Positions 6,582 to 49,229 of a stretch of 64,000 nt of DNA are shown one piece after another (the stretch's first letter is position 1; each line of letters begins with the position of its first letter). A program made the position numbers and the translations under genes. Origin of the DNA: a virus; the IMG/VR virus record IMGVR_UViG_3300036861_000805, positions 22,758 to 86,757 of that record; one strand, 5' to 3'. The notes below the pieces were generated by a model. That model saw nothing but the letters and a program-made list of their open reading frames with translations, had not been told where the DNA came from and did no database searches.

Positions 6582-6779
6582 ATGCCTAGCCATTGGGAAC
6601 GACTGCTCGCTCAGATCGGACTGTCTGGCCGCACGCGGATGACGCCAGCCGGGCCGCGACACGCCTCGCGTGACATCGTGGAGAGCACGAAACCCAATTG
6701 CTCCTCAAAGCAGCGAACACGGGATCGTGCTCGCGCCAAGTGCGCGAAGCAGGCACGCAAGAGGAATCGGAGGCGATAG
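6582..6779 (+). CDS. Small very basic protein
   Basis: 65 residues starting directly after the previous stop. It is rich in Arg and Lys, ending CAKQARKRNRRR, and would bind nucleic acid non-specifically. No fold recognised. It ends 2 nt before the GTG of the ATPase, which suggests coupled translation. Confidence 0.4.
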   Translation: MPSHWERLLAQIGLSGRTRMTPAGPRHASRDIVESTKPNCSSKQRTRDRARAKCAKQARKRNRRR

Positions 6780-6781
6780 CA

Positions 6782-8539
6782 GTGCTGAAGGTCAGCAAGG
6801 ATCTCTCGCTGCCGCTTGATCTCGCTGGAGAGGCCACAGCGATCCTCGCAAAACGAGGTGCTGGTAAGACGAATACAGCCACCGTCTTCGCAGAGGAACT
6901 CATCCGTGAGGGCGTGCAGACGGTGATCCTCGATCCGGTGGGCGCATGGTGGGGCATTCGCTATGGATCAGATGGCGAATCTCCGGGCCTGCAGGTGCCA
7001 GTGCTCGGGGGCGCACACGGTGACGTGCCGCTCGAGCAGACTGCCGGCGCGCTCATCGCCGACGTCGCAGTCGATTCCGGCCAGTCGCTCCTCCTCGATC
7101 TCTCGGATCTGCCCTCCAAGGCAGCAGTCGGCCGCTTCGTCACCGACTTCGCGGAGCGCCTCTTCCGACGCAAGGCTCGGGACCACTCGCTCCTGCATCT
7201 GATCCTCGAAGAGGCTGACAGCTTCGCTCCGCAGAAGGTGAAGGGCTCCGAGCGCATGCAGGGCGCGATCGAGCAGATCGTGCGCCGCGGCCGAGCTCGC
7301 GGACTCGGTGCCACACTCATCACCCAGCGCTCCGCTGTTCTCTCGAAGGACGTGCTGACGCAGGCTGACACGCTCGTCGTCATGCGCACGACGGGCCCGC
7401 ATGATCTGCGCGCAGTGAAGGAGTGGATCGACTCGCGCGGAGACGAGCGCGGCGCCGGCGTCATGGATTCACTGCCTTCACTCGCCACAGGAGAAGGATG
7501 GATCTGGAATCCCGAGAACGACGTGCTCTCGCGCGTGCAGTTCCGGGCGCGCAAGACGTTCGACTCCTCACGCACGCCGAAGGCAGGCGAGCACCGGGCG
7601 GAACCCGAGAACGCGGCCTCGATCGACATCGCTGCTCTGGGTGAGAAGATCAAGGCGACGGCCGAGCGCGTGAAGGCTGAGGATCCGCGAGAGCTGAAGA
7701 CACGCATCCGAGAACTTGAGTCCGAGCTCGCACACAAGAATGACGTCACAGTCGTGACGGAAACCGTCGAGGTGCCTGTCTTCAACGGAGAGATCGAGAA
7801 TCTCGAGACCCTGATGAGACAGCTCAAGCTGCGAGTCGACGACGTCGCTGAATTTCAGCATACGATCCACGATTCGTACGAGAGCCTTGTCGCACGCATT
7901 GCCGAACTGAAGGGAGTATCGAATGTCCGATCTGACACCCGAGCAGGAAGAACTGCTGCGCGAGATCGAAGCGCGGCTCGGCCGGATCGAGGGCGTGCTG
8001 AACGTCATGCTCATCGCCCGCGGCATCGATCCGAAGACGCTCAAGCCGCTGAAGGCTTCGAGCCGACCGTCCCGCAGCAGAAGGTCCTCGACGCCCTCGC
8101 TTGGCTCGAGTCGATAGAACTCGAAGGAGAGCGTCGCCGCGTCGGCTTCATCGCGGGCTACTCTCCGAACTCGGGCAACTTCAACAACCTACTTGGGCAG
8201 CTCCGTACAGCGAGCATCGTCGACTATCCGAAGGTGGGCACAGTCGAGCTCACGGATGCAGGACGTGCTCTCGCGCAGGCTCCTGAGGAAACGCCCACAA
8301 CGTCGGCCCTGCACGCAAAGGTGCTGGAGAAGCTCCCTGGTCCGCAGCGACGTGTTCTGGAGGCACTGCTTGCTCGCTACCCACATGACGCATCGAAGCA
8401 GGAGATCGCCGACGAGGTCGGCTATTCCGCAAACAGCGGCAACTTCAACAACATCCTCGGCAAGATGCGCACGCTCGGCATCATCGAGTACCCCGCTCCT
8501 GGCTACGTGCGCGCCGAAGACGTGCTCTTCCTCGAATGA
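6782..8539 (+). CDS. HerA-like ATPase with C-terminal winged-helix repeats
   Basis: 585 residues from GTG 6782. Walker A AKRGAGKT is near residues 23-30 and Walker B LHLILEEAD near 138-146, followed by RGRARGLGATLITQR, all typical of HerA/FtsK-like DNA translocases (DUF87). After a coiled coil come two related winged-helix units sharing GYSxNSGNFNNxLGxxRT. The protein probably binds and pumps DNA in replication or repair. Between about 7920 and 8055 the main frame reads as an Arg/Ala-rich, shadow-like stretch while another frame looks coding, so the gene may contain a nested gene, a recoding event or two indels. Confidence 0.65.
   Translation: MLKVSKDLSLPLDLAGEATAILAKRGAGKTNTATVFAEELIREGVQTVILDPVGAWWGIRYGSDGESPGLQVPVLGGAHGDVPLEQTAGALIADVAVDSGQSLLLDLSDLPSKAAVGRFVTDFAERLFRRKARDHSLLHLILEEADSFAPQKVKGSERMQGAIEQIVRRGRARGLGATLITQRSAVLSKDVLTQADTLVVMRTTGPHDLRAVKEWIDSRGDERGAGVMDSLPSLATGEGWIWNPENDVLSRVQFRARKTFDSSRTPKAGEHRAEPENAASIDIAALGEKIKATAERVKAEDPRELKTRIRELESELAHKNDVTVVTETVEVPVFNGEIENLETLMRQLKLRVDDVAEFQHTIHDSYESLVARIAELKGVSNVRSDTRAGRTAARDRSAARPDRGRAERHAHRPRHRSEDAQAAEGFEPTVPQQKVLDALAWLESIELEGERRRVGFIAGYSPNSGNFNNLLGQLRTASIVDYPKVGTVELTDAGRALAQAPEETPTTSALHAKVLEKLPGPQRRVLEALLARYPHDASKQEIADEVGYSANSGNFNNILGKMRTLGIIEYPAPGYVRAEDVLFLE
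7923..8117 (+). CDS. Nested ORF inside the ATPase gene (different frame)
   Basis: An ATG with a good ribosome binding site (AGGGAG, 6 nt upstream) opens a frame that reads MSDLTPEQEELLREIEARLG and continues with natural-looking helical sequence to about GIDPKTLKPL, after which it becomes Ser/Arg-rich and looks like a shadow. The main frame shows the opposite pattern over the same bases. It is either a real overlapping small gene, or its first 43 codons belong to the winged-helix protein through a -1 shift near 8055. Confidence 0.4.
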   Translation: MSDLTPEQEELLREIEARLGRIEGVLNVMLIARGIDPKTLKPLKASSRPSRSRRSSTPSLGSSR

Positions 8540-8760
8540 TGTACTCAGTCGGATATGCAATCCGCGATGCTCGCCAGACGCGGGGCATGTCGCAAGTCGC
8601 TCTCGCCAGGACAGCAGGTGTCACTGATCGTGCGATCAGCTACTGGGAGGCAGGTGTAAAGATCCCCAATCTCATGCTGCTCGTGAAGCTCGCTGGCGCT
8701 CTCCACGTGGAGTTCGTATGCATCGGCGACGGAGTCCTCTGGCGAGAAGATCCACGATGA
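8536..8760 (+). CDS. XRE/Cro-type helix-turn-helix regulator
   Basis: 74 residues with a classic lambda Cro/C1-like HTH: IRDARQTRGMSQVALARTAGV, read as helix 1 and helix 2, then TDRAISYWEAGVKIP as recognition helix and turn. It lacks a dimerisation or cleavage domain, so it is Cro-sized. ATG 8536 and ATG 8539 are both possible starts in the overlap with the ATPase stop. It likely represses a phage promoter; an inverted repeat and a weak promoter lie just downstream at 8993-9020. Confidence 0.75.
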   Translation: MMYSVGYAIRDARQTRGMSQVALARTAGVTDRAISYWEAGVKIPNLMLLVKLAGALHVEFVCIGDGVLWREDPR

Positions 8761-9032: not shown

Positions 9033-9332
9033 ATGAACGAATCCTGGGAGAACATCCGAGCGCGGATCATCGATCGCGACCGCGCTTGTAGCGGCCGCTT
9101 CCTGGGCGGGCCCTGCTCGCCGCTCATCGACGTCCATCACATCGTCCCGCGCGACGAGGGCGGGACGGACGAGGATGAGAACCTGCTCGCGCTCTGCCAC
9201 CGCCACCACCCGATGCTGGAGTCCATGCGCAGGCAGATCCTGCGCCGCCGGGGATGGAAGACGTGCCCGCACGATCACCGTTATTCGTGGGCTCGCGAGG
9301 AATGCGAGGCAAAACTGAACCGTGCGGCATAG
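9033..9332 (+). CDS. HNH endonuclease
   Basis: 99 residues. The core DVHHIVPRDEGGTDEDENLL followed by ALCHRHHPM is a standard HNH nuclease motif with the His pair, Asn and final His; upstream CSGRFLGGPC and the CH of ALCH supply possible zinc-binding Cys. Stand-alone HNH genes in phages act as homing endonucleases or help terminase. It is far from the terminase genes here, so a homing or DNA-processing role is more likely. Confidence 0.8.
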   Translation: MNESWENIRARIIDRDRACSGRFLGGPCSPLIDVHHIVPRDEGGTDEDENLLALCHRHHPMLESMRRQILRRRGWKTCPHDHRYSWAREECEAKLNRAA

Positions 9333-9368
9333 GTGGGTCGGGGGGCGGCAGCGGTGTTCATCCCGAGA

Positions 9369-9395
9369 GACCGGAGTGGGGCGGGGCGTCCGGTC
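9369..9395. promoter_or_regulatory. Inverted repeat before the ligase-like gene
   Basis: GACCGGA and TCCGGTC pair across a 13-nt GC-rich spacer in the 105-nt gap between the HNH gene and the ligase-like gene. There is no T tract, so it is either a weak attenuator or an operator. The remaining gap holds only the ribosome binding site AAAGGAG of the next gene. Confidence 0.35.
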
Positions 9396-9437
9396 GATGC
9401 GATAACTTTACGCGACCCTAATCGTCAAAGGAGTCCC

Positions 9438-10013
9438 ATGAAGAAGATTCCAACCATCTTCGAACGCGACTGGGAAGGAGATCGGTCCCGCGTGCTCGAC
9501 GAGGTTGTGCCCGGCTGCATGTGGGTGATCGCTGGCGAGGGAGTTGCGACTCGCAAATACGACGGAACGGCCTGTCTCGTCGAAGATGGCAAGCTCTGGA
9601 AGCGTCGTGAGCAGCGCGCGGGAACCGGGGCCCCTCCCGAAGACTTTAGGCTCGTCGAGCACGATCTGACGACAGACAAGATCATCGGCTGGGTGCCCGT
9701 CGGGGATGGCCCCGACGACAAGTGGTATCGCGAGGCACTCAACAACGCTGGCGGTATTGGAGGACTCCCAGATGGCACCTATGAACTCCTGGGCCCTAAG
9801 GTGCAGGGTAACCCCGAACGCTTCGAGCAGCACACGCTGCTCCGACACGTGGACGCCGAGCCGTACATCGTTCCTCGCACCTACGCGGGCATGAGAGACC
9901 TGCTCAAAGAGCTCGATGTCGAGGGCTTCGTCTTCCATCATCCTGACGGACGCATGGCGAAGATCAAGGCCCGCGACTTCGGGATCAAGCGCCGGCGGCT
10001 TGAGCGTGTCTGA
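9438..10013 (+). CDS. RNA ligase-like nucleotidyltransferase (DUF5565-type)
   Basis: 191 residues from ATG 9438 behind AAAGGAG. Motif I, RKYDG, is at residues 39-43 with Lys40 as the expected AMP acceptor; YELLGPKVQGNPE near 115-127 resembles motif III/IIIa; EGFVFHHPDG near 162-171 is motif IV and MAKIKARDF near 173-181 is motif V. The order and spacing fit ATP-dependent RNA/DNA ligases, most like small phage RNA ligases. It may repair cleaved tRNA, a known phage answer to anticodon nucleases; that role is inferred. Confidence 0.75.
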   Translation: MKKIPTIFERDWEGDRSRVLDEVVPGCMWVIAGEGVATRKYDGTACLVEDGKLWKRREQRAGTGAPPEDFRLVEHDLTTDKIIGWVPVGDGPDDKWYREALNNAGGIGGLPDGTYELLGPKVQGNPERFEQHTLLRHVDAEPYIVPRTYAGMRDLLKELDVEGFVFHHPDGRMAKIKARDFGIKRRRLERV

Positions 10014-48371: not shown

Positions 48372-48436
48372 ACATCGAACGAGACGGCTTCGTTGGGCAT
48401 GGGGCGGCTGGGGATCTGGCGAGTGGTGCTATGTGA
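48368..48436 (+). CDS. Possible 22-residue linking ORF
   Basis: GTG in the stop of the previous gene opens a 22-codon frame (MNIERDGFVGHGAAGDLASG...) that ends exactly across the start of the next gene. Its main role may be to carry ribosomes across the gap by coupling. Real product uncertain. Confidence 0.3.
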   Translation: MNIERDGFVGHGAAGDLASGAM

Positions 48437-48576
48437 AGGCACCCACTGCCGAACAAGCAGTCGAACTGGCGATCCTGGAACACGCCATGCCCCCGACGGC
48501 TCGGGTGATACGCGTCGTCGCAGACAACAGGTTCACGCGCTACATCATCGGCCGTATTGCTGTGGAGGAGGAATGA
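48433..48576 (+). CDS. 47-residue hypothetical protein
   Basis: GTG start, in overlap with both neighbours. Alpha/beta-like: EQAVELAILEHAM, then RVIRVVADNRFTRYIIGR and an acidic end. A small accessory protein before a glycosyltransferase. No family recognised. Confidence 0.45.
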   Translation: MKAPTAEQAVELAILEHAMPPTARVIRVVADNRFTRYIIGRIAVEEE

Positions 48577-49229
48577 AGGCCGTCATCCTCGTCCCCTGGC
48601 GCACCGACAACGGACCCCGCGCTCGCAGCTGGGCGAACGTGCGCGAGAACCTCGCCACCGTCGGAGTCCCTATCGTCGAGGGGAACAACATCGGCCGCGT
48701 CTTCGAGCGCGCTCGAGCCCGCAACATCGCCGCCGACAATGCCGGCGAGTGGGATGTCGCGCTCTTCTGCGACGCCGATATCCTCGCTCCACGGCAGTGC
48801 ATCGAAGCGGCTCTCATGCGCTCGTATCTGACTGGTGCCTACGTCGTCGTCTATTCGCATCTGCGCTATCTCACGAGACAGGGCACCGAGGAGAGGCTGA
48901 ACGGCCGCTACCCAGAGGAATGCGAGACGGATGAGGAGACGAGCTTGACCTGGGAGTGCGCGTTCGCCGTGCGCCGGGACATCTGGGATGAGATCGGAGG
49001 ATTCGATGAACGCTTCCGCGGCTGGGGCCATCAGGTTGCCGCGTTCTTCTATGCCTACGCGACCTTCGGTGGCCGGAGCCGGATCAACGGAATCGCCTAC
49101 CATCTCGATCATCCGCTCGTCGATCGCTCGCTCGAGCCGAACTTCCAGGCGAATGCAGAGCGCGCCGAGCGCTATAAGGCGGCCGTCGACGATCCGCAGG
49201 GCATGCGCAAGATCCTGGAGGAACGATGA
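48573..49229 (+). CDS. GT-A fold glycosyltransferase
   Basis: 218 residues from ATG 48573. The start KAVILVPWRTDNGPR, the D-x-D-like ALFCDADI near residue 63-70 and WECAFAVRRDIWDEIGGFDE followed by RFRGWGHQ are the signature of GT2/GT7-type galactosyltransferase-like enzymes. It transfers a sugar from a nucleotide donor. The acceptor is unknown; a phage glycan is inferred from its neighbours. Confidence 0.8.
   Translation: MKAVILVPWRTDNGPRARSWANVRENLATVGVPIVEGNNIGRVFERARARNIAADNAGEWDVALFCDADILAPRQCIEAALMRSYLTGAYVVVYSHLRYLTRQGTEERLNGRYPEECETDEETSLTWECAFAVRRDIWDEIGGFDERFRGWGHQVAAFFYAYATFGGRSRINGIAYHLDHPLVDRSLEPNFQANAERAERYKAAVDDPQGMRKILEER

Follow-up and report, generated by a model that had tools for sequence, protein, structure and literature searches.

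A candidate small gene overlapping the linker of a HerA-like ATPase gene in a tailed phage

Standard annotation skips genes nested within another gene on the same strand. The nearest published parallel to the locus described here is the ShiLan domain, an HNH endonuclease encoded out of frame within a mycobacteriophage methylase gene; this homing insertion lacks a ribosome binding site and demonstrates that phage enzyme genes can conceal a second gene in another frame (PMC11855218). In viral overlapping genes, disorder of one of the two products is a recognised trait (reviewed in PMC8227390), and in classical overprinting the older frame keeps genome-like codons (PMC3744397).

As in ShiLan, an alternative-frame open reading frame (ORF) lies fully inside a phage enzyme gene, the main frame remains open and is predicted to tolerate the shared stretch as a loop, and the arrangement is lineage-restricted. 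Unlike ShiLan, the nested ORF has a ribosome binding site, gives no evidence of mobility and shows no sign of insertion relative to the closest relative of the ATPase gene, in which the linker is equally long. A homing element of the ShiLan type encodes an HNH endonuclease; the 64-aa ORF encodes no nuclease, and neither an HNH nor any other domain was found in its product with Pfam and PHROGs. The locus shares with overprinted viral genes (PMC8227390, PMC3744397) a +1 internal overlap, disorder in one partner and an orphan small product, and differs from typical overprinting in that genome-like codon usage is found in the nested frame rather than in the linker frame (PMC3744397). The main protein matches HerA/FtsK-like ATPases (DUF87/HerA_C; structure 9x1l) in its P-loop ATPase core, and its phage family, unlike solved HerA, adds a coiled coil, a disordered linker and two winged-helix repeats.

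The ATPase gene and its setting

The window, i.e., the whole 64,000-nt stretch of DNA that was analysed, is part of an IMG/VR virus record of 86,757 bases (IMGVR_UViG_3300036861_000805). It carries tailed-phage genes for portal, major head protein, tape measure, tail fibre and large terminase, the last of which is separate from the HerA-like ATPase gene. The 86 predicted genes, among them a tape measure ORF of 1,456 aa, occupy ~88% of the window, which contains no N, and no same-strand genes overlap by more than 34 nt. The features of the ATPase gene and its downstream neighbours are listed in Table 1.

The main ORF matches DUF87 (3.6e-7) and HerA_C (1.7e-6) in Pfam, both above curated cut-offs. 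The P-loop (Walker A) motif RGAGKT/S is conserved in its family, and its sequence profile matched HerA structures, with 9x1l as the best. Judged from its sequence, the gene encodes a HerA-like ATPase with the HerA central and C-terminal ATPase domain and a Walker A motif. Its true start is probably ~6782, since residues 1 to 19 are unstructured and relatives begin at about residue 29 or 30.

Table 1. Coordinates of features in and downstream of the HerA-like ATPase gene (window positions)
Feature	Position	Strand	Description
Main ORF	6698–8539	+	613 aa: HerA/FtsK-like ATPase, coiled coil, disordered linker, two winged-helix repeats
Shine-Dalgarno-like AAGGGAG	7910–7916	+	GGAG core at 7913–7916; 6 nt before nested ATG 7923
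Segment with +1 coding signature	7913–8055	+	Best-scoring segment, 22.3 nats
Disordered linker of the ATPase	7919–8044	+	Residues 408–449, pLDDT < 50; composition matches linkers of 115 relatives
Nested +1-frame ORF	7923–8117	+	64 aa, ATG to TGA, MSDLTPEQEELLREIEARLGRIEGVLNVMLIARGIDPKTLKPLKASSRPSRSRRSSTPSLGSSR
Last 20 codons of nested ORF	8056–8117	+	Ser/Arg-rich disordered tail; overlaps start of first winged helix
First winged-helix repeat, main frame	8078–8290	+	Boundaries approximate
Second winged-helix repeat, main frame	8339–8536	+	Boundaries approximate
Cro-like HTH gene	8536–8760		Downstream of ATPase gene, before RNA ligase
HNH endonuclease gene	9033–9332		Between ATPase gene and RNA ligase
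Phage RNA ligase	9333–10013	+	phrog_14301, E 5e-60; close downstream of ATPase

A switch of coding frame over the disordered linker

The initial annotation had described a dual-frame stretch inside the ATPase gene, and both the stretch and its coordinates were confirmed by GC content at codon positions, a triplet model and synonymous codon choice, which agree on the switch; by the last two, no segment of the window is more extreme. In the main frame, GC at codon positions 1/2/3 is.66/.30/.67 in 7700–7920 versus.86/.71/.34 in 7923–8055, and the latter stretch read in the +1 frame gives.71/.34/.86, so that the codon-position GC plot proposed as a check places the normal coding pattern in +1. The codon model, trained on 85 other genes of the window and scored as nats per 45 codons, favours +1 by up to 21.7 nats, the top value among 15,019 in-gene windows; the best frame preference elsewhere in window genes is 15.2 nats, and such cases usually lie near an over-long 5′ end. 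By synonymous choice alone the +1 frame scores 0.394 (genes, 0.182 ± 0.119) and the main frame −0.163, within the lowest 0.2% of gene windows; the two differ by 0.557, and the largest such difference in 1,472 windows is 0.305. As the initial annotation also held, the main frame meets no stop and its coding signal returns, at about 8055–8060. The +1 coding signature exceeds chance over codons 1 to 45 of the nested ORF only, and the 20 C-terminal codons have no coding signature of their own.

Preferences of 10 to 15 nats for another frame were also seen over the first ~50 codons of the ORFs at 48393–49229 (+), 50826, 53252, 55861 and 10021. The 5′ ends of these ORFs are probably over-long, or possibly represent overlaps instead.

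The ATG with a good ribosome binding site claimed for the +1 frame is present at 7923, with AAGGGAG upstream. The nested ORF is therefore complete within another frame of a longer gene, having a start, a stop and a ribosome binding site; a TGA in its frame (7908–7910) lies four codons before the ATG. Window genes contain 321 out-of-frame ATGs; 10 of these combine at least 45 open codons with a Shine-Dalgarno (SD) sequence, and among the 10 only the ORF at 7923 scores positively for coding (+21.5; next, −8.6). The start region is weakly structured (183 of 200 shuffles fold at least as well), and an Rfam search found no RNA element. The N-terminal pattern of the nested product, M-[ST]-D-[LF]-T-P-E-Q-E, was sought in IMG/VR, and in four of six distinct cases it marks the apparent true start of an unrelated small phage gene. 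The +1 signal begins (best-scoring start 7913, flat optimum 7910–7928) at the SD and ATG. Given how often out-of-frame ATGs, and SDs ahead of them, occur in the window, we estimate that a start of this kind would fall within ~6 codons in any one frame with a probability of ~0.5%.

AlphaFold modelling of the main protein, with a 35-row alignment built from the window and the retrieved loci, folded the ATPase, the coiled coil and both winged helices, and the residues below pLDDT 50 coincide almost exactly with the +1 segment. Modelled from its single sequence, the 64-aa product has a helix at residues 6 to 32 (block means > 90) followed by a disordered basic tail. A helix predicted in this way agrees with the coding signal, though as evidence that the protein is real it is weak.

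A 7-bp direct repeat, CTGAAGG, occurs at both edges of the +1 segment (7907–7913 and 8049–8055; spacing, 142 bp); no other 7-mer is repeated within the 220-bp region. The repeats hint at recombination. An insertion between them was considered and rejected because 142 bp breaks the frame.

Relatives of the ATPase and of the nested product

The HerA-like ATPases with coiled coil, disordered linker and two winged-helix repeats form a large phage and prophage family (200 confirmed viral matches) that is apparently little described. Searching with the ATPase alone yielded 11 loci, and searching with a family alignment then yielded 80 viral and 38 genomic ones; one GenBank phage was added. About 115 distinct relatives keep the ATPase, the coiled coil, the linker and the two winged helices in a single uninterrupted frame, and when redundant copies are counted this is true of essentially all full-length proteins. 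BLAST did not match the winged-helix part of some divergent relatives, yet their ORFs run to the same length. No split ATPase and winged-helix genes were found in the relatives. The single continuous frame indicates that the main frame is the true ATPase frame. According to the initial annotation, relatives with one continuous frame would refute a dual-frame stretch; the relatives do have such a frame for the main protein, but this leaves unexplained the +1 signal, which is absent from them. Among 118 family ORFs, no other holds a comparable nested ORF: that of the window alone has an SD start and a positive score.

The linker preceding the winged helices is Pro/Ala/Arg-rich in relatives. The hydrophobicity of the +1 peptide (0.356) lies just above the range of the linkers of 115 relatives (mean, 0.17; maximum, 0.35), and the main-frame linker reading of the window falls within that range, at its low end. 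In the closest relative (L002, 75% identical in the ATPase) the main-frame linker is Arg/Ala-rich and of the same length, 56 aa. Both observations argue that the +1 peptide is not simply a displaced native linker. GC-rich coding DNA read out of frame is Arg/Ala-rich in any case, so that little can be concluded from the composition of the main-frame reading by itself. Neither linker reading aligned significantly with the relatives in residue order, +1 being marginally better (z about 2). An ORF overlapping the upstream part of the ATPase ORF of another relative (L003:3447–3995, +) encodes LLAKGIHPATYRPL and then a Cys-rich zinc-ribbon-like region; LLAKGIHPATYRPL resembles LIARGIDPKTLKPL of the nested ORF.

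Searches for homologues of the 64-aa peptide found none: the best E values of tblastn against phages and plasmids were about 1 and 5, and IMG/VR, Pfam, PHROGs and the 88 genomes and records behind related ATPase loci, the window's own record included, gave short motif matches at most. These collections may omit records very near the window, and the case for a nested gene rests on one sequence. The pattern ARGIDPKT had 18 matches in IMG/VR, in unrelated proteins. One small basic-tailed protein (L140) resembles the end of the nested ORF, at a length insufficient to establish homology. The one notable DNA match, with a Sinorhizobium (rhizobial) RND pump gene, covers 54 nt at 81% and keeps the +1 phase, as protein-like sequence in that frame would; it was judged to be motif convergence.

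Overprinting, displacement and other possible origins of the +1 signal

We consider it somewhat more probable than not, at roughly 55%, that the nested ORF is a lineage-specific overlapping small gene, either overprinted on the ATPase linker or captured by it. Of the three explanations offered by the initial annotation, a nested gene is the best supported. Ribosomes would load internally on the ATPase transcript at AAGGGAG/ATG (7910–7925), and translation in the +1 frame would yield a candidate 64-aa protein with an amphipathic helix (residues 6 to 32) and a short Ser/Arg-rich basic tail. Read in the main frame, the same DNA would supply no more than a flexible connection from the ATPase and coiled coil to the two winged helices; the exact residues of such a linker would hardly matter, and the +1 protein could therefore dominate codon choice there. 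The frame switch, the start signals, the predicted linker disorder and the single frame of the family are observed; that the small protein is made, and that it arose by overprinting or arrived as a captured small gene, is inferred.

Against a nested gene stand the failure to find a homologue of its product, the absence of such an ORF from other relatives and the last 20 codons with no coding signature. The codon usage also argues against it, in that the odd codons are in the main frame and not in the nested one. By the criterion of Pavesi (PMC3744397), +1 would therefore count as the older frame, as a frame-shifted segment would also predict. Either a nearly free linker leaves the nested protein as the stronger constraint, or the segment was once read in +1 and then displaced. 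The latter, without any product of its own, is the main rival, and a serious one, that we nevertheless regard as rather doubtful: a segment of this gene, or a piece of another, would have been displaced by two compensating indels or by an illegitimate fragment swap, and the Arg/Ala-rich main-frame reading would be tolerated in the linker. The older-looking codon usage of +1, the failure of both readings to align in residue order to relatives (+1 being slightly the better) and the direct repeat marking both edges all fit this history. It requires, however, two shifts within ~135 bp, or a swap, the repeat spacing is not a multiple of 3, and the +1 peptide is unlike the linker of any relative. 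The coincidence of the first edge with SD and ATG is the main argument against compensating indels.

Two compensating changes, another of the earlier explanations, are conceivable as an evolutionary event. As sequencing or assembly errors near 7920 and 8055 they are improbable: the contig is otherwise intact, and errors would not explain why the first switch coincides with an SD and an ATG. Such errors in this single contig would yield exactly the pattern seen, but the absence of N, the dense gene coverage, the small same-strand overlaps and the lack of long homopolymers at the edges all speak against them, and the resulting protein would be without the disordered linker typical of the family. 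Chance, by which the shadow frame of an Arg-rich linker would merely resemble coding sequence, is very improbable: linkers of several relatives do have weak out-of-frame preferences, up to 14.3 nats, but the window exceeds all of them, is alone among the family ORFs in its start and score, and stands well outside the range of gene windows in synonymous choice.

The remaining earlier proposal, in which ribosomes starting internally at 7923 would pass near 8055 to the winged-helix frame by programmed −1 frameshifting and so make a separate winged-helix protein, found no support and seems hardly credible. The return of coding signal to the main frame at about 8055 would suit it, but that return is expected without recoding because the winged helix is conserved. 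Programmed −1 frameshifting uses a slippery site and a stimulating structure; no X XXY YYZ heptamer was seen by eye near 8055, the RNA fold there is ordinary (z, −0.48), and the winged helices are fused in frame in all relatives.

If the nested ORF is an overlapping gene, its product might act as a small helical partner of the ATPase, co-expressed with it and oligomerising or binding its coiled coil or DNA; this role is a guess. The fuller proposal, that a de novo or captured helical protein inside the linker is co-expressed with the ATPase, regulates it or assembles with it, and that the nested frame is the dominant constraint on the shared DNA, is tentative. A nested frame that dominates codon choice exactly over a disordered linker would provide a clean test of linkers as nurseries of new genes. 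Codon-frame scans are able to find nested-gene candidates in uncultured phages. Hidden out-of-frame genes are already known in phages, and the candidate in the HerA-like ATPase linker would add one more.
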